Positions 66 to 52,698 of a stretch of 64,000 nt of DNA are shown here, in pieces (positions within the stretch are counted from its first letter, which is position 1; every line of letters starts with the position of its first letter). The stretch is from contig NZ_CM001484.1 in the NCBI RefSeq assembly GCF_000243395.2, positions 3,714,524 to 3,778,523 of the forward strand. Direction: 5' to 3'. A program made the translations under genes and the position numbers. The stretch is from Saccharomonospora glauca K62 (lineage in GTDB: Bacteria; Actinomycetota; Actinomycetes; Mycobacteriales; Pseudonocardiaceae). A model generated the notes under the pieces. It saw nothing but the letters and a program-made list of their open reading frames with translations, made no database searches and was not told the DNA's origin.

Positions 66-1076
66 TCACGTCACCTTGCGGGCGCGCTCCAGGTTCTCCG
101 CGAGGTTGTCGATGGTCCGGGCCTGCGCGACGTAGTCCATCGAGCTGAACTCCCACGGGTACACCTGCCCGGCTTTCGCCGCGGGCAACTGCGCGAACGT
201 GGGCTGGTCGAGCATGGCGTCGCCGTCCATGGCCCGCAGCGAGTAGAGCACCACGTCAGTGCGGTAGTCGCTGATGTTCTCCCAGCTCACCGACTGCCAG
301 TAGTACTCGCTCCCGCCGGGGTCCGGATAGGACAGACCGAGTTCGACGTAGCTGCGCAACGCGGGATCGTCCTGGGCCTTGGCGATGTGCACCCCGTCGC
401 TGGGATAGGCGGCCACCGCCATCACCGTGAGGCCCTTCCGCGCCACCTCGCGCAGGCGGTCACGGGCGGCCTCGTACTCCTTCTTCGGCCCGGCGAGGTC
501 GTCGTCGGTCACGCCGAGGGACTTGGCGAGTTCCACGGTGCGGTCGACCACTCCGGTGGCCGACCCCGCCATCGCGATGGCGACGATGGGCGCGATCTCA
601 CCGACGAGCTTCTGCTGATCGAGATCGTTGAAGCCGTACAGCGGCTTCTTGGGGTCCAGCTTGCCCGAGGAGTCCACGGGGTAGGCGTGGGTGACGATCA
701 CGTCCGGCCGCTGCGCCGCGAGCGCCTCGATGTCGATCTGCCCGTAGGTGGTGCCGACCTCGGTGACCTCGGAGGTGTCCTTGCCCTCGAAGTTCACGTC
801 GTCGGCGAGCGCGGTGTATCCGAAGGAGGCCACCGGCACGATGCCGTAGTTCCACAGCGACGCGATCGCGTCGTTCAGCCCGGCGATGCGAGTGGGTCGC
901 CGGTCGAGGCTGACGGTGTTGCCGGTGTCGTCGGTAAACGACCACGCTCCCGAGCCGCCTTCCCGACCACTCGGCCGGTCATTCGACGTTCCACCGCCGC
1001 AAGCGGCGAGCAGGCCCGTCGCACCGAGTGCGAGGCTGCCGCCGAGGAACGCGCGGCGGGACAGTGAACTACGCAT
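66..1076 (-). CDS. ABC transporter substrate-binding lipoprotein, iron-siderophore (FecB/FepB) type
   Basis: 336 aa. The N-terminus carries a twin arginine (SRRAFLGG) followed by a hydrophobic stretch and the lipobox LAAC, with Cys26 the predicted lipidated residue, so it is probably Tat-exported and anchored outside the membrane. The body (about 50-330) has the periplasmic-binding-protein layout of the iron-siderophore family: a repeated domain with IDIEALAAQRPDVIV typical of the first lobe. It would bind a ferric siderophore and deliver it to an ABC permease; no permease or ATPase gene lies next to it, so it must work with subunits encoded elsewhere or left of the window. An iron-box operator sits immediately upstream of the ATG, which supports iron-repressed expression. 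The siderophore cannot be named from sequence. Confidence 0.88.
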   Translation of the reverse strand: MRSSLSRRAFLGGSLALGATGLLAACGGGTSNDRPSGREGGSGAWSFTDDTGNTVSLDRRPTRIAGLNDAIASLWNYGIVPVASFGYTALADDVNFEGKDTSEVTEVGTTYGQIDIEALAAQRPDVIVTHAYPVDSSGKLDPKKPLYGFNDLDQQKLVGEIAPIVAIAMAGSATGVVDRTVELAKSLGVTDDDLAGPKKEYEAARDRLREVARKGLTVMAVAAYPSDGVHIAKAQDDPALRSYVELGLSYPDPGGSEYYWQSVSWENISDYRTDVVLYSLRAMDGDAMLDQPTFAQLPAAKAGQVYPWEFSSMDYVAQARTIDNLAENLERARKVT

Positions 1077-1080
1077 GGGG

Positions 1081-1099
1081 TGAGGTTAGACGAACCTAA
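1081..1099 (-). promoter_or_regulatory. Iron box (IdeR/DmdR/DtxR-type operator)
   Basis: TGAGGTTAGACGAACCTAA matches the 19-bp IdeR/DmdR consensus TTAGGTTAGGCTAACCTAA at 16 positions and keeps both half-sites. It lies 5-23 nt upstream of the start codon of the iron-siderophore binding protein, where bound repressor would block transcription when Fe(II) is plentiful. Confidence 0.85.
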
Positions 1100-1209
1100 C
1101 TTCCCTCGGAAGTGTGATCTCGTCGGATTGATCCTCGTTCCTTCCGCGTCGTCGGTTCGCCGCCGCACCCCTTCGTCATACGGTTCACCCGTCAGGAAGG
1201 GGGCCGAAG

Positions 1210-1593
1210 GTGTCGAACCGGACCGTAGAGGTGACGGTCGAGGCAGACCCGCTGCTCGTACCGGTGGTGCGAAACGTCGCGGCCGACCTGGCCATCCGGC
1301 TCGATCTGCAACTCGACACGATCGCCGACCTCCGACTCGCCGTGGACGAGACCTGTGGGTTGCTTCTGGCCCGCGCCGCGACACCCACCACCCTCCGTAC
1401 TCGTTTCACCCTCGGAGACGGCACCATCACGGCGCGCACGGAACTCTGCTGTCGCGAGGGCACCGCGCTGCCCGACAACGGACTCGGATGGCACATGCTC
1501 ACCGCGCTGGTGCGTTCGGTGCGCTGCTACCACACCTGCGGAGCCGGCGGCGAGAAGTTGGCCGTCATCGAGTTCACCACGGGCGACCTCTGA
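1210..1593 (+). CDS. RsbW-like anti-sigma/ATP-binding regulator (HATPase_c_2 domain)
   Basis: 127 aa, GTG start with a purine-rich RBS (AGGAAGGGGG) before it. The whole protein is one small GHKL-type fold like RsbW/UsfX anti-sigma kinases: helix LRLAVDETC corresponds to the N-box region, and NGLGWHMLTALV to the ATP-lid/G2 region. The N-box lacks the usual Asn (ETCGLL where ExxxN is expected), so kinase activity is doubtful although sigma or STAS binding may remain. It faces the five-gene rsb operon tail to tail (13-nt gap) and may be part of the same partner-switching network. The target is unknown. Confidence 0.75.
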   Translation: MSNRTVEVTVEADPLLVPVVRNVAADLAIRLDLQLDTIADLRLAVDETCGLLLARAATPTTLRTRFTLGDGTITARTELCCREGTALPDNGLGWHMLTALVRSVRCYHTCGAGGEKLAVIEFTTGDL

Positions 1594-1606
1594 CCGCGCA
1601 AGGCGA

Positions 1607-2986
1607 TCACCCCTCCCATCGGCACATGAGCAGACAGACGTCGTCGTCGTGGTCGGTGGAACCCAGCATCGTCCGCAACACGTGTTCGGCCCTGTCCTCC
1701 AGGGAGTCGCCGTCGCAGGCACGGAACGCCTCCACCAGCCGAGCCATGCCCGCGTCCAGGTCGCTCGTCCTGCGCTCGATCAACCCGTCGGTGAACAACG
1801 CCACCGACGACCCCGGGGACAACTCACGTTCGTGCTGGGGAAACTCCAGTTCCGCCGGGATGTGGATGCCCAGCATCGGAGCGTGCTCGACCTCCAGGAA
1901 GGAGACGTCGCCGTGGTGGTCCTGCAGCAACGGCGGGGGATGTCCCGCGCTGGTCCAGCGCAGCAGGCCCGTGGCCGGCTCCAGTTCCGCGACCACGGCG
2001 GTGGCGTACAGCGGGGTGTCCAGACCTCGCAACAGGTCGTGTACCAACCGCAGCGACGCGGCCGGGCCGTGGCCTTCGAGCGCATAGGCACGCAGGGCGT
2101 TCTGGAGCTTTCCCATCACGACGGCGGCGTCCACGCCGTGGCCGGTGACGTCACCGACCATCAGCACCACCGTGCCGTCCGGGCGCGTCACCGCGTCGTA
2201 CCAGTCACCCCCGACGTGGACGCCGCTGGTGGCGGAGCGGTACCGGGCGACGAGCCCGAGGTCACGCATCGACGCCAGGGTGGGCAGCATCGCCCGCTGC
2301 AGACGTTCGGCGAGCTCGTGTTCCCGCTCGTACTCGTTGGCGTTGCGCAGCCCGACGGCGACCCGGTTGGCGATGCCCGTCGCCAGCGTCAGGTCGTCGT
2401 CGGTGAACTCGGCGCTCTCCCGATACAGGTCGAAAACCCCCAGCACATGCGGGCCCGCGGTCAACGGCACGCTCACCCTGAGCGAGCCTTCCCGTACCGG
2501 TTCCCGAGTCCTCATCGCGCTGCGCGTGGCCTGGTCCGGCTCGCGTTCGGGGGCGTCGGGACAGGACAGCCCGAACTCCGTCAGGGTCCAGACCCGTGTG
2601 GCGTCGGCGAAGCCCTGCGACCGCACCAGTTCGGCGACCTCGTCCAGCAGGTGCCCGGCGTCCAGGGACCTCGTGGAGGCCCGCGACACCTCGTCGAGGA
2701 ACGACGTGCGTTGTCGCTGTCGGTCGATCTCCGCGTGCAGGGCGAGCAGTCCCGCGTTGGTCTGCTCCAGCTCGGACTGATGCCAGCTCAGATCGCGGTC
2801 GCGATCGCTCAGCACGTCCGCCAACTCCCGCAACGCCACCCCCAGCACATCCTCCGGAGCGACGTCGTGCAGCCGGGCCAGCACCCGACGCCACACGTCG
2901 GGCGGAAGCTCACGACCGTGCAGCGCGTCCCGAAGCGTGGCGCGCACGGCGTCGTGTCGTCCTGCCGCGCGAAGGTCTTCCGTCAT
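1607..2986 (-). CDS. RsbU-like PP2C (SpoIIE-type) phosphatase with GAF domain
   Basis: 459 aa starting at MTEDLRAAG; this ATG overlaps the TGA of the preceding gene by 4 nt, which decides the start. Order: helical/coiled N-terminus (about 1-100), a GAF-like sensor (about 105-240) and a SpoIIE/PP2C phosphatase (about 255-459) with GGDWYDA and VGDVTGHGVDAA, which carry the metal-binding aspartates. By family knowledge it dephosphorylates a STAS antagonist, releasing a sigma factor from its anti-sigma kinase. It is last in the rsbRST operon, so RsbT released from the RsbR/RsbS complex is the likely activator. The GAF domain could add a second input; its ligand is not predictable. Confidence 0.88.
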   Translation of the reverse strand: MTEDLRAAGRHDAVRATLRDALHGRELPPDVWRRVLARLHDVAPEDVLGVALRELADVLSDRDRDLSWHQSELEQTNAGLLALHAEIDRQRQRTSFLDEVSRASTRSLDAGHLLDEVAELVRSQGFADATRVWTLTEFGLSCPDAPEREPDQATRSAMRTREPVREGSLRVSVPLTAGPHVLGVFDLYRESAEFTDDDLTLATGIANRVAVGLRNANEYEREHELAERLQRAMLPTLASMRDLGLVARYRSATSGVHVGGDWYDAVTRPDGTVVLMVGDVTGHGVDAAVVMGKLQNALRAYALEGHGPAASLRLVHDLLRGLDTPLYATAVVAELEPATGLLRWTSAGHPPPLLQDHHGDVSFLEVEHAPMLGIHIPAELEFPQHERELSPGSSVALFTDGLIERRTSDLDAGMARLVEAFRACDGDSLEDRAEHVLRTMLGSTDHDDDVCLLMCRWEG

Positions 2987-3990
2987 GTGGTTCCACTTCC
3001 GGACACCACAACGACACCCGAGTCGTCCCGGTGTCTGCCGTACGTTCCCAGCAGCCAGCCTGCCACGGTGGCGGGGTCGTGGGCGAGCACGTCCGTCCGA
3101 TCCGCCGGGGTCCACCGCTCGGACACACCGTCCGTGTGCATCACGAGGAGGCCCCGACCGTCCCACGGCCGCACCAGGGGCGACGACCGCCTGCCGCTTC
3201 GCTGCCTTCTCCCCACGATGCCGGGCGTGGACACGAGGGCCTCGTGAGTGCCGTCACCCCGGACGAGGCGAACGGTGGAATTGCCCACTCCGCAGAACGA
3301 CACGGTCGACCGTGCGGTGTGGAACTGGGCGATCGCGACCGTCGCACCACGCCTCGGGCCCATGTCGGCATCCATGGCGGCGAGCAGCTCGCTCGGGGAC
3401 GCCTCGGGACGCGCCCTCACGTGGGCGGTGACGGACCGGCTCGCCTCCGCCGCCGCGGGACCGTGCCCGAGACCGTCGCTCAACACCACGGTCACCACGC
3501 CGTCGGCGTGCGCGGCCACCCAGTCGTCGCCACACGTCGTCTCACCCGGCGCGGCCCGCAGGACGGCCCCGATCCTCAGCCCGGAACCCCATGGGGCCTC
3601 CTCCACCGCCCCGTGCCAGCGCGCCAGCACCGTCGTGCCCTCGCCGTAGCGCGAGAAGATGTCGAACTCGTCGGCCATGCGCCTGATCCCGCCGAGCCCG
3701 ACCCCCAAGGTGCCCGTGGTGGAGAATCCGTCCCGCATGCTTCGGGACACGTGCTCGATGCCCGGGCCCCGGTCGGTGGCGACGACGTCCAACCGGCCCT
3801 CGGTGGGCATCACCGCGAGCAGCCCGTCCGTGGCGTATTTCACCAGGTTGGTGGCCAGTTCCGTGGTGGCGAGGACCACTCGCTCGACGTCGGGGTCCGG
3901 CAATCCGGCGTCCCGTGCCGCGCGGCTCGCGAGCTGGCGCGCCCGCGTCACGTGCCCCGGCGCGGTCACCGCGAGCGCTCCCCCGGTCAC
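2983..3990 (-). CDS. RsbX-like bifunctional protein: GHKL ATPase domain plus PP2C phosphatase
   Basis: 335 aa. The N-terminal third (about 1-130) is a GHKL domain with N-box ELATNLVKYA, DRGPGIE and a glycine-rich lid (GTLGVGLGGI). The C-terminal half (about 150-335) is a compact SpoIIE/PP2C-type phosphatase with LSDGLGHGPAAAEAS and HTDGVSE. ATPase+PP2C proteins of this kind commonly follow rsbRST in actinobacteria and are thought to reset RsbS/RsbR like RsbX. The gene overlaps both neighbours by 4 nt (ATGA), implying translational coupling. Whether the kinase half phosphorylates a partner is not shown by sequence. Confidence 0.85.
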   Translation of the reverse strand: MTGGALAVTAPGHVTRARQLASRAARDAGLPDPDVERVVLATTELATNLVKYATDGLLAVMPTEGRLDVVATDRGPGIEHVSRSMRDGFSTTGTLGVGLGGIRRMADEFDIFSRYGEGTTVLARWHGAVEEAPWGSGLRIGAVLRAAPGETTCGDDWVAAHADGVVTVVLSDGLGHGPAAAEASRSVTAHVRARPEASPSELLAAMDADMGPRRGATVAIAQFHTARSTVSFCGVGNSTVRLVRGDGTHEALVSTPGIVGRRQRSGRRSSPLVRPWDGRGLLVMHTDGVSERWTPADRTDVLAHDPATVAGWLLGTYGRHRDDSGVVVVSGSGTT

Positions 3991-20065: not shown

Positions 20066-20557
20066 ATGCGGAGTTCGGGGAACGGACTGGTCTTCGCCGC
20101 GGGCTCGGCCCTGGCGGCCGCCGCGCTGGGCTCGCTGGGCTCCGCCAAGGCTCCGAAGGTCTATCGGCAGTTGGACAAACCCCGCTGGGCCCCGCCCGCG
20201 GGCGTGTTCGGGCCGGTCTGGAGCGTGCTGTACGCGGCCATCGGCGTCGCCGGGTGGAGGCTGTGGCGGAAACGGGCCGGGCGGACGACGCTGGGCCTGC
20301 ACCTCGGGCAGCTCGCCCTGAACGCGGCCTGGCCCAGCGCGTTCTTCGTGGCCCGCGACCGCACGCTCTCGCTCGCGGTGGTCGCGGCACTCGACGCCAC
20401 GATCGCCGCCGAGCTCGCCACCGCCGCGCGCCGCGATCCGGTGGCCGCCGGGCTGCTCGCCCCATATCTCGCGTGGAGCCTGTACGCCACCGCGCTCACC
20501 GCGGCGATCCGCGACCCGAAGAGCACGTCGCTGGTCCGGCGATGGCTGCGAAGGTAG
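20066..20557 (+). CDS. TspO/MBR family tryptophan-rich sensory protein
   Basis: 163 aa with five predicted helices. The family signature is clear: DKPRWAPPAGVFGPVWSVLYA, followed by LNAAWPSAFF and LAPYLAWSLYATAL. TspO proteins bind porphyrins and sterols and take part in tetrapyrrole or stress control. Single gene; the N-terminus is divergent from the Pro-rich membrane protein across a 211-nt gap. Confidence 0.9.
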   Translation: MRSSGNGLVFAAGSALAAAALGSLGSAKAPKVYRQLDKPRWAPPAGVFGPVWSVLYAAIGVAGWRLWRKRAGRTTLGLHLGQLALNAAWPSAFFVARDRTLSLAVVAALDATIAAELATAARRDPVAAGLLAPYLAWSLYATALTAAIRDPKSTSLVRRWLRR

Positions 20558-20855: not shown

Positions 20856-20932
20856 TGGTGCCCCCGACGGGACTCGAACCCGCACTGAGTCGATTTTAAG
20901 TCGACCGCCTCTGCCGGTTGGGCTACGGGGGC
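20856..20932 (-). tRNA. tRNA with anticodon UAA (Leu, UUA codon), short variable loop, CCA encoded
   Basis: Read leftward: acceptor GCCCCCG pairs perfectly with CGGGGGC, D-arm GCC/GGC, anticodon stem GTCGA/TCGAC with loop CTTAAAA (anticodon UAA), a 5-nt variable loop (TCAGT), T-arm with TTCGAGT, discriminator A and genomic CCA (20856-20858). Without CCA it is 74 nt. A leucine UAA tRNA would normally have a long variable arm; A73 agrees with leucine identity. Its gene lies 28 nt after the ndh stop codon. Confidence 0.93.
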
Positions 20933-20960: not shown

Positions 20961-22283
20961 CTACGAGCGAGAAGCCCTGGCGAACTCTTCCTTCGGGTTG
21001 TTGACCTGGCCGAGCGCGACGGTCTCGCGCTTGAACAGACCACTGAGCGCCCAGCCGAGCAGGATGCGCACCTTGCGGTTGAAGGTCGGCATCGCCTTGA
21101 CGTGGTAGGCGCGGTGGAACAGCCACGCCGGGAAGCCCTTGATCTTCATCTTCAGGACGTCGGCGACGCCCTTGTGAAGACCGAGACCGGCCACGGCACC
21201 GAGGTTCTTGTGGTAGTAGTCCGTCGGCTTTCCGCCCCGGAGGACCCGGATGATGTTCTTGGCCATGTGGCGGGCCTGACGCACCGCGTGCTGGGCGTTG
21301 GGCGGGCAGGTCGCCGTGGGGTCGGCCTCGGTGCGCGACAGGTCGGGCACCGCGGCGACGTCACCGGCGGTCCAGACGTCCGGGTGTCCCACCACCTGCA
21401 GCGCCGCCGTCGCCTGCAGCCTGCCTCGCTTGTCCGTGGGCAGGTCGGAGCTGGCGACCACCGGGTTCGCCTTCACGCCGGCGGTCCAGATGATCGTGTC
21501 GCTGTCGAACTCCGTGCCGTCGGAGAGCACGACGTGGCCGTTCTCAAACGACTTCGCCGCGGTCGACAGGTAGATCTCGATGCCGCGCTTCTCCAGCTGC
21601 TCGGCCGTCCAGACACCGAGCGTCTCACGCACCTCGGGGAGGATGCGTCCGGCCGCCTCCACGAGCACCCACCGGATGTCCTCCGGCTTGATGTTCTGGT
21701 AGTAGCGGCAGGCGTCGCGAGTCATGTCCTCCAGCTCGGCCAGCGCCTCGATACCCGCGAACCCGCCGCCGACGACGGTGAACGTGAGCAGCCGCTTGCG
21801 CAGCTCGGGGTCGAGGGTGCTCGCGGCCTCGTCCAGCTTCGTGAGGACGTGGTTGCGCAGGTAGGTGGCCTCGCCGATGGTCTTGAGGGAGATTCCGTGC
21901 TCGGCAAGGCCGGGGATCGGCAGCAGTCGGGCAACGGAACCGAGCGCCACTACGAGGATGTCGTAGTTGAGCTGCTCGATGTGGCCGTCGGGAGCCTCCA
22001 CCGTGACGGTCTTGTTGGCGTGCTCGATGGAGGTCACGCGCGCGGAGAGGATGTGGCAGCGCCGGAGCACCCTACGCAGCGGCACGACCACGTGGCGTGG
22101 CTCGATGGACCCGGCAGCCGCCTCCGGCAGGAAGGGCTGGTAGGTCATGTGCGGCTGCGGGTCGACGACGGTCACGGACGCCTCGTTGGCTCGCAGCTTC
22201 TTCTGCAGCCCGAGGGCCGTGTACAAGCCGACGTATCCGCCACCGAGGATCAGGATCCGCGTCGGTTCCGACTTGACTGCCAT
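20961..22283 (-). CDS. ndh: Type II NADH dehydrogenase (NDH-2)
   Basis: 440 aa from MAVKSEPTR. FAD Rossmann motif ILGGGYVGLYTALGLQ at the N-terminus, second nucleotide (NADH) motif TVVGGGFAGIEALAELEDM in the middle, LVVALGSVARLLPIPG and the FAD-contacting TAGDVAAVPD; the C-terminal 60 aa have amphipathic/hydrophobic segments for membrane binding (FPAWLFHRAYHVKAMP). It oxidises NADH and reduces menaquinone without proton pumping. Length and motifs are those of mycobacterial Ndh. Confidence 0.93.
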   Translation of the reverse strand: MAVKSEPTRILILGGGYVGLYTALGLQKKLRANEASVTVVDPQPHMTYQPFLPEAAAGSIEPRHVVVPLRRVLRRCHILSARVTSIEHANKTVTVEAPDGHIEQLNYDILVVALGSVARLLPIPGLAEHGISLKTIGEATYLRNHVLTKLDEAASTLDPELRKRLLTFTVVGGGFAGIEALAELEDMTRDACRYYQNIKPEDIRWVLVEAAGRILPEVRETLGVWTAEQLEKRGIEIYLSTAAKSFENGHVVLSDGTEFDSDTIIWTAGVKANPVVASSDLPTDKRGRLQATAALQVVGHPDVWTAGDVAAVPDLSRTEADPTATCPPNAQHAVRQARHMAKNIIRVLRGGKPTDYYHKNLGAVAGLGLHKGVADVLKMKIKGFPAWLFHRAYHVKAMPTFNRKVRILLGWALSGLFKRETVALGQVNNPKEEFARASRS

Positions 22284-22467
22284 GTCCTCATAGTCGCACT
22301 GCCATATAGCGAGTGTTAGATACCCCTCCTCGGCTGTGACCAGCGTCGCCACGCTACCCAAACGATTCAGTCGACGCCCGAGTGCGACGCCCCCGACGGG
22401 CACTTTTGGTCACCGGATTGCCACCGTGAGTGCGAGATTGTCGGCCCCCGGCACTACAACCACACCC

Positions 22468-40155: not shown

Positions 40156-40227
40156 TCCGCCGTAGTGTAATTGGCAGCACTTCAGATTTTGGTTCTGACA
40201 GTCCAGGTTCGAGTCCTGGCGGCGGAG
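40156..40227 (+). tRNA. tRNA-Gln (anticodon UUG)
   Basis: 72 nt: acceptor TCCGCCG/CGGCGGA, anticodon stem TCAGA/TCTGA with loop TTTTGGT (anticodon TTG), T-arm CCAGG/CCTGG with TTCGAGT, discriminator G. CCA is not encoded. Conserved position beside glmU. Confidence 0.97.
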
Positions 40228-40266
40228 CGGAGGTACTCCTGACGTGCCAGGAGACGCCTGAACGGG

Positions 40267-52361: not shown

Positions 52362-52698
52362 CACAGCTCCAGGCAGCTTGAAAGCGGGCGTCCGCGTGGG
52401 ACGTCCGAAAGTAGACAGACGGCTAGGGAACCGACGTTGGTCGAAAGGGATAAGGCGCTCAGCGGGAAACGGTGTGGCTACAACAAGCACACACCGTGCG
52501 GCGGCCTTGATCGACGACTCGACGCTGCGTCAGGAGCGGCGTGCGATACACAGAATCCTCCATCGGTCCTGGCGTTAGCACCTTCCCCGTCGGGGCGGTT
52601 GCTGCGACGTCACTGAGCCAGGTCTCTCGGTCGCTCGGGATGGATGCCCTCACAGTACAGCGGACGCCTCACGCGATGACAAGCATGACGGGGAGAGA
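52362..52698. other. Intergenic region upstream of the MetN-like gene
   Basis: 337 nt. It contains an 8-bp hairpin (ACGGTGTG at 52469-52476, CACACCGT at 52490-52497, 13-nt loop) that could end ksgA transcription or lie in a leader. I found no SAM- or T-box-like structure by eye and no gene. Confidence 0.5.

Follow-up and report, generated by a model that had tools for sequence, protein, structure and literature searches.

A tRNA-Leu(UAA) gene with a short variable loop in Saccharomonospora glauca and similar tRNAs on bacterial chromosomes, phages and plasmids

Leucine tRNAs with and without a long variable arm

According to the excerpt of a 2023 review on which we draw (PMC9976931), tRNALeu is long-armed everywhere except in animal mitochondria, and the part of a 2020 review of unusual tRNAs that we consulted lists tRNALeu as class II. 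The same 2023 excerpt bases recognition by the E. coli LeuRS on A73, A15-U48, G18G19, A20a and contacts in the D and T loops, also names A14 as a leucine element, and states that neither the sequence nor the folding of the variable arm is needed and that E. coli tRNALeu variants without the anticodon and variable arms remain active. Human mitochondrial LeuRS charges an armless tRNALeu through A73 and A14 (PMC9976931, same excerpt). For mycobacteria, the passages used from one report describe a tRNA cluster with one short-loop tRNALeu(TAG) and a larger-loop isoacceptor elsewhere in the genome (PMC6582537), and those from another name "especially tRNALeu-2, 3 and 5" as long-looped in M. tuberculosis (PMC11541572). 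Short tRNALeu has thus already been met piecemeal by specialists. Our searches of the open-access literature brought up no description of it as a general bacterial feature, and the excerpts consulted of PMC4932002, PMC4033280, PMC6297222, PMC9569102, PMC6459853, PMC5966550 and PMC5038265 hold nothing on it.

The tRNA-Leu(UAA) gene of Saccharomonospora glauca K62 resembles bacterial class II tRNALeu of the E. coli type in its anticodon set and in A73, A14, A15-U48, G18G19 and A20a, and resembles most bacterial class II tRNALeu in having a D stem of 3 bp and a mismatch at 13-22. It differs from them in lacking the variable arm and in having A9, C12-G23, C13.A22 and G57, where class II tRNALeu has G9, G12-C23 and mostly G13.A22 and A57. 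It is armless like human mitochondrial tRNALeu(UUR), which is leucylated without a long arm (PMC9976931, in part), but that tRNA belongs to an organelle with its own LeuRS, whereas the tRNA described here has a standard cloverleaf and lies in a bacterial genome where one LeuRS would serve short and long forms. The clustered mycobacterial tRNALeu(TAG), compared by its description in part of PMC6582537, also has a short variable loop and is probably of the same type; unlike it, the short UAA gene is the only gene found for its codon. In the M. tuberculosis set, likewise compared by description, the naming of three long-looped members hints that the other tRNALeu are short, although the part of PMC11541572 consulted does not say so outright.

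The short-arm exception is real and broad, and the textbook rule of a long arm in bacterial leucine tRNA needs to allow for it. In S. glauca, no tRNA other than the short one was found for the sense codon UUA; the short form is common in the phylum (mycobacteria and corynebacteria included), and phages bring short tRNALeu into hosts of several phyla. A cell in which one LeuRS must charge two tRNA architectures is a natural experiment. The finding also matters for recognition by LeuRS, for toxins reading the variable arm and for the movement of tRNA genes.

The gene and the leucine tRNA set of its genome

The window is the whole stretch of 64,000 nt that was analysed, and its features of interest are collected in Table 1. 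The first-pass annotation had proposed a UAA-anticodon tRNA of 74 nt with a 5-nt variable loop and suggested a check by covariance score. ARAGORN calls a tRNA-Leu(taa) at exactly 20856-20932 on the minus strand, and cmscan matches it to RF00005 with 58.4 bits against a gathering score of 29 (E 4.9e-10, model positions 1-71 of 71), which excludes chance and, with a score above the cut-off across the whole model, makes the gene a member of the tRNA family. The sequence bears out both lengths (77 nt if the encoded CCA is counted, otherwise 74 nt), and the variable region of 5 nt lies outside class II, which is defined by at least 10 nt and has 11-17 nt in the class II rows compared. The seven pairs of the acceptor stem and the CCA are intact. 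The D stem has 3 pairs only (G10-C25, C11-G24, C12-G23), followed by the C13.A22 mismatch and a D loop one base longer that carries A14, A15, G18G19 and A20a, and the T stem includes a G49-T65 wobble pair. The cloverleaf is recovered by the covariance model but not by plain minimum-energy folding (z-score -2.07).

Table 1. Positions, in the window, of the tRNA-Leu(UAA) gene, its parts and its upstream neighbor
Feature	Position	Strand	Evidence
tRNA-Leu(UAA) gene, class I, CCA encoded	20856-20932	(-)	ARAGORN and cmscan RF00005
Anticodon UAA, decoding UUA	20896-20898	(-)	sequence, ARAGORN
Variable loop UCAGU, 5 nt	20884-20888	(-)	sequence
D arm, 17 nt	20907-20923	(-)	sequence, comparison of unique class I and II tRNAs
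T arm, loop UUCGAGU (G57)	20867-20883	(-)	sequence, same class I and II comparison
Discriminator A73, leucine determinant	20859	(-)	sequence; determinant per excerpt of PMC9976931
Pyr_redox_2 ORF upstream of the tRNA, same strand	20961-22403	(-)	Pfam family match

The tRNA starts 28 nt past the end of the same-strand Pyr_redox_2 ORF, which we take to be NDH-2-like. Elsewhere in the window are an ORF of 163 aa at 20066-20557 (+), presumably a TspO/MBR tryptophan-rich sensory protein, a tRNA-Gln(UUG) at 40156-40228 (+), which is the only other tRNA that ARAGORN finds there, and a SAM riboswitch aptamer at 52557-52646 (-) (RF00162, 63.9 bits).

The genome (4.56 Mb, 99.97% complete) has 46 tRNA matches, all of which were covered by running ARAGORN on the window and on further genome pieces. 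Five of these are leucine tRNAs: those with anticodons UAA, CAA and UAG are short, with a 5-nt loop, and those with CAG and GAG are long-armed. A second, long-arm UAA tRNA had been named beforehand as the finding that would lower the importance of this gene. No second UAA tRNA was found among the 46, and a pattern for the long UAA form has no match in the genome; this possibility was rejected, and the short gene is the only UAA tRNA found. The LeuRS family has one match above the cut-off, with editing and anticodon-binding domains. The short Leu(UAG) and the long Leu(CAG) of this genome have the anticodon stem CACGG/CCGTG in common, which may hint at recombination between short and long forms.

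The leucine identity elements named for E. coli (A73, A14, A15-U48, G18G19 and A20a) are all present, and the earlier remark that A73 fits leucine agrees with its role as a LeuRS determinant (PMC9976931, in part). Among the unique class I sequences compared (n=119, part of them from pattern searches that fixed some identity positions), A15-T48, A20a and GG occur in 119 each, A14 in 116 and A73 in 115. The subset of 32 whose search query or pattern did not fix identity positions gives the same picture, with A15-T48, A20a, GG and A14 in all 32 and A73 in 31. C12-G23 together with C13.A22 is found in 119/119 class I sequences and in 32/32 of the unbiased subset, whereas G12-C23 is found in 36/36 unique class II sequences; G57 is likewise present in 119/119 class I sequences against A57 in 26/36 class II. 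Of the 43 class I rows obtained by searches that did not fix the variable loop, 33 have NCAGU there, as do 156 of 166 when rows from a pattern fixing NCAGU are added. One of the 204 tRNA-Leu rows (L205) could not be parsed and was dropped.

We conclude that the gene very probably encodes a working class I leucine tRNA, the only UAA tRNA in the cell, charged by the single LeuRS without a variable arm. LeuRS would recognize it through A73, A14, A15-U48, G18G19 and A20a at the elbow, and the short loop, here UCAGU, would be paired with the altered core (A9, C12-G23, C13.A22, G57) that takes the place of the class II core. The three short tRNAs of the genome would be of the same build and would supply the anticodons for UUA, UUG and CUA, leaving CUG and CUC/CUU to class II tRNAs. 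The function of the short tRNA-Leu(UAA) appears to be standard, and the gene is probably expressed. A silent or degenerate gene is very improbable. Such a reading could draw on the promoter and terminator scan beside the gene, which gave 0 matches and no sigma-70-type promoter, and on the rarity of UUA (a crude set of 43 ORFs from the window has 4 UUA among 17115 codons). It is opposed by the intact acceptor pairs and CCA, by a copy 95-100% identical in 12/12 genomes of the genus examined (this one included), and by the presence of UUA in 3 of the 43 ORFs when this is the only UAA tRNA found. We rejected a pseudogene on the basis of the intact structure, the ARAGORN and cmscan calls and the conservation in the genus.

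Amino acid encoded by UUA, UUG and CUA

The first-pass annotation had left room for a tRNA charged otherwise than with leucine. Under that reading the tRNA would carry another amino acid and UUA would be recoded in the lineage. The class II arm is indeed absent, and annotations have been doubted for want of the arm: in the part of PMC8450103 consulted, a human tRNALeu(CAA) without it counts for the tRNAscan-SE authors as a Met-like gene of doubtful isotype. We therefore compared the codons with the amino acid columns of protein alignments. UUA, UUG and CUA were masked in the column comparison, so the codon tests are not circular.

For RpoB and LeuRS, the frames were chosen by similarity, as choosing the longest open frame seemed wrong for many rows, and the short and long labels were assigned by hand from the tRNA surveys. 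In genomes with short tRNAs, leucine columns hold 5/5 UUA (all from one genome, G199), 21/21 UUG (6 of them from the S. glauca genome) and 3/3 CUA; in genomes with long or unassigned tRNAs the counts are 12/13, 128/130 and 35/35. The UUA evidence comes from relatives, and the test within the S. glauca genome covers UUG only: the RpoB frame of this genome has one UUA, located at codon three or four, a position at which 13 of the 27 rows are gapped.

The genes neighboring the short UAA tRNA at 152 loci form a second set, in which 70 of the 85 UUA codons (from 24 loci) lie at leucine columns, against a background of 6710 leucine columns in 75877; for comparison, CUG does so in 2056/2276 and CUC in 2264/2535. 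The remaining 15 UUA fall at columns for Ile (6), Val (3), Gln (2), Arg (2), Tyr (1) and Phe (1). UUG is noisier, with 369/511 at leucine columns and 64 at Phe columns. This set contains spurious six-frame ORFs, and even UUC reaches Phe columns in only 1014/1354 cases; we read the non-leucine UUA and UUG columns as noise from such ORFs.

In relatives carrying the short tRNA, the codon thus encodes leucine, which makes the tRNA a tRNALeu by function as well. The leucine positions of UUA, UUG and CUA and the leucine elements that are kept identify a leucine tRNA at odds with the long-arm rule, as the first-pass annotation had considered, and lend no support to its other suggestion. Alignment of the tRNA with the others of its own genome points the same way: the two other short leucine tRNAs score 57.5 and 50.5, and the next nearest is tRNA-Asn at 48.5, so it did not arise recently from another tRNA by a change of anticodon. 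Charging with another amino acid, rejected on the codon tests and these scores, is extremely improbable.

Spread and origin of the short form

The short tRNA-Leu(UAA) belongs to a type that is common on actinobacterial chromosomes and is found on phages and plasmids as well. In a survey of 45 genomes of the class, the CAG and GAG tRNAs among those listed are long, and UAA, CAA and UAG are short or long depending on the genome. Pattern searches of 197 genomes of the class matched the short UAA form in 85 and the long form in 61, chance matches included; inspection of the matched strings by eye put 4 of the 85 and 15 of the 61 down to chance, leaving 81 genomes with a real short form and 46 with a real long form, none in both sets, and 70 of the 197 matching neither. 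A stricter short-UAA pattern had given 29/197 and missed variants, and it was replaced by the looser patterns. The long UAA pattern has four matches in G187 and three in G245, many for a codon that is often rare. Among the 80 stretches listed of at least 119 that carry the short UAA form are those of Nocardia, Gordonia, Rhodococcus, Mycobacterium gastri, Corynebacterium, Microbacterium, Arthrobacter, Pseudonocardia, Nocardioides and Cutibacterium. In the four named actinobacterial genomes checked by pattern (M. gastri, a Corynebacterium, a Kocuria and a Cutibacterium), the short form is the only UAA form matched.

Our data uphold the leucine part of the suggested actinobacterial variant of leucine identity; the restriction to actinobacteria is too narrow, in view of phages of other phyla and some MAG contigs. 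Short UAA matches occur in some records, MAG contigs among them, labelled as other phyla, a label that may reflect wrong binning. Five of these records were checked by pattern: a Rokubacteria MAG has both forms, and the Deltaproteobacteria, Acidobacteria, planctomycete and Aphanocapsa records have the short form only. Cyanobacterial tRNALeu(UAA) genes are split by an intron, and the long-UAA pattern would miss such genes.

Twelve phage regions were chosen from pattern matches; one holds a tRNA-Lys and eleven hold tRNA-Leu, and 2 of 399 tRNAs were dropped in calling tRNAs on the phage and plasmid set. The eleven phages (P-RSM6, P-SSM7, S-CREM1, ZC03, P59, 21C1, EscoHU1, Mx1, Comrade, Phendrix and StAB) have twelve genes for tRNA-Leu between them, each with a 5-nt loop and with C12-G23, A15-T48, A20a and A73, and eleven of them with C13.A22, EscoHU1 being the exception. 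ZC03 additionally carries a long-arm UAG tRNA. Most of the enterobacterial phage matches listed are annotated as tRNA-Lys, and a cyanophage short tRNA has no match in E. coli genomes at E 1e-5. The Streptomyces phage Comrade has a short Leu(CAA) (L320, locus 297-371); the bldA tRNA of Streptomyces, its host genus, has a long arm, and we take bldA to be the class II UAA tRNALeu of that genus. A regulatory tRNA of the bldA type would be a UAA tRNA gating late development; for the S. glauca gene, what we observe on this point is the low frequency of UUA in the window.

Of 13 matching plasmid records, 8 were inspected and 7 carry a short tRNA-Leu: those of M. alvei, M. avium, M. intracellulare, Mycolicibacterium TY66, Curtobacterium and Tsukamurella, and a 2.66-Mb Nocardia replicon. 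The Mycolicibacterium alvei plasmid (L325, locus 386-3330) has 28 tRNAs in an array that also encloses an HNH endonuclease ORF; in this array CAG and UAA are short (6 nt) and CAA is long. Genome G030, a single contig, holds short CAA, GAG and CAG in a tRNA cluster, the short CAA with T73, and a long UAA lies elsewhere in it. The limitation of the short form to UAA, CAA and UAG therefore holds only outside such arrays. On plasmid 5 of Tsukamurella tyrosinosolvens (L388, locus 301-377), a short tRNA-Leu(CAA) directly adjoins a site-specific integrase gene, like an integration site. The eighth record inspected, a Sphingomonas parapaucimobilis plasmid (L326, locus 1496-1579), carries a tRNA-Leu(UAA) with a variable region of 12 nt and a class II core, also adjoined by a site-specific integrase. 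It is conceivable, but in our opinion unlikely, that class I tRNALeu is a separate mobile bacterial lineage, kept by phages and tRNA-array plasmids because an armless form works with any bacterial LeuRS yet evades nucleases and toxins gripping the variable arm, and that in actinobacteria it has taken over from the long-arm genes on the chromosome that served UUA, UUG and CUA.

We give about an even chance to a single loss of the arm, after which the short body would have spread among anticodons, genomes, phages and plasmids. The same core is found on chromosomes, phages and plasmid arrays, and in a tree built from leucine tRNAs only, a single branch sets all class I rows (59/59) apart, with a support of 96/95 and recovery in 94% of 200 bootstrap trees. 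This signal, however, depends on columns whose state the short loop may itself dictate. When the D-arm columns are left out, the class label needs 8 changes, with a minimum of 5 imposed by the starred branches, and a single change is seen in 0% of the bootstrap trees, from a bootstrap that had not settled. That tree, and the way the families of the class alternate between short and long UAA genes, would suit repeated loss of the arm with the same compensating changes, or recombination of D-arm stretches between genes, a reading that we consider a serious candidate at somewhat under even odds. The recurrence of the C12-G23 signature, found in 119/119 class I sequences, in phages of unrelated hosts (12/12 genes) argues against it. 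The D-arm columns touch the variable loop in the folded tRNA, so that shared descent, recombination and forced convergence look alike in these trees.

A further tree included other isotypes, with duplicates and non-leucine tRNAs from outside the S. glauca genome left out and the 131 class I UAA rows reduced to 35 at random. Only 11 of its 143 inner branches are starred, and it does not place the class I type; the tRNA-Leu(UAA) described here groups in it with that of Amycolatopsis rifamycinica.
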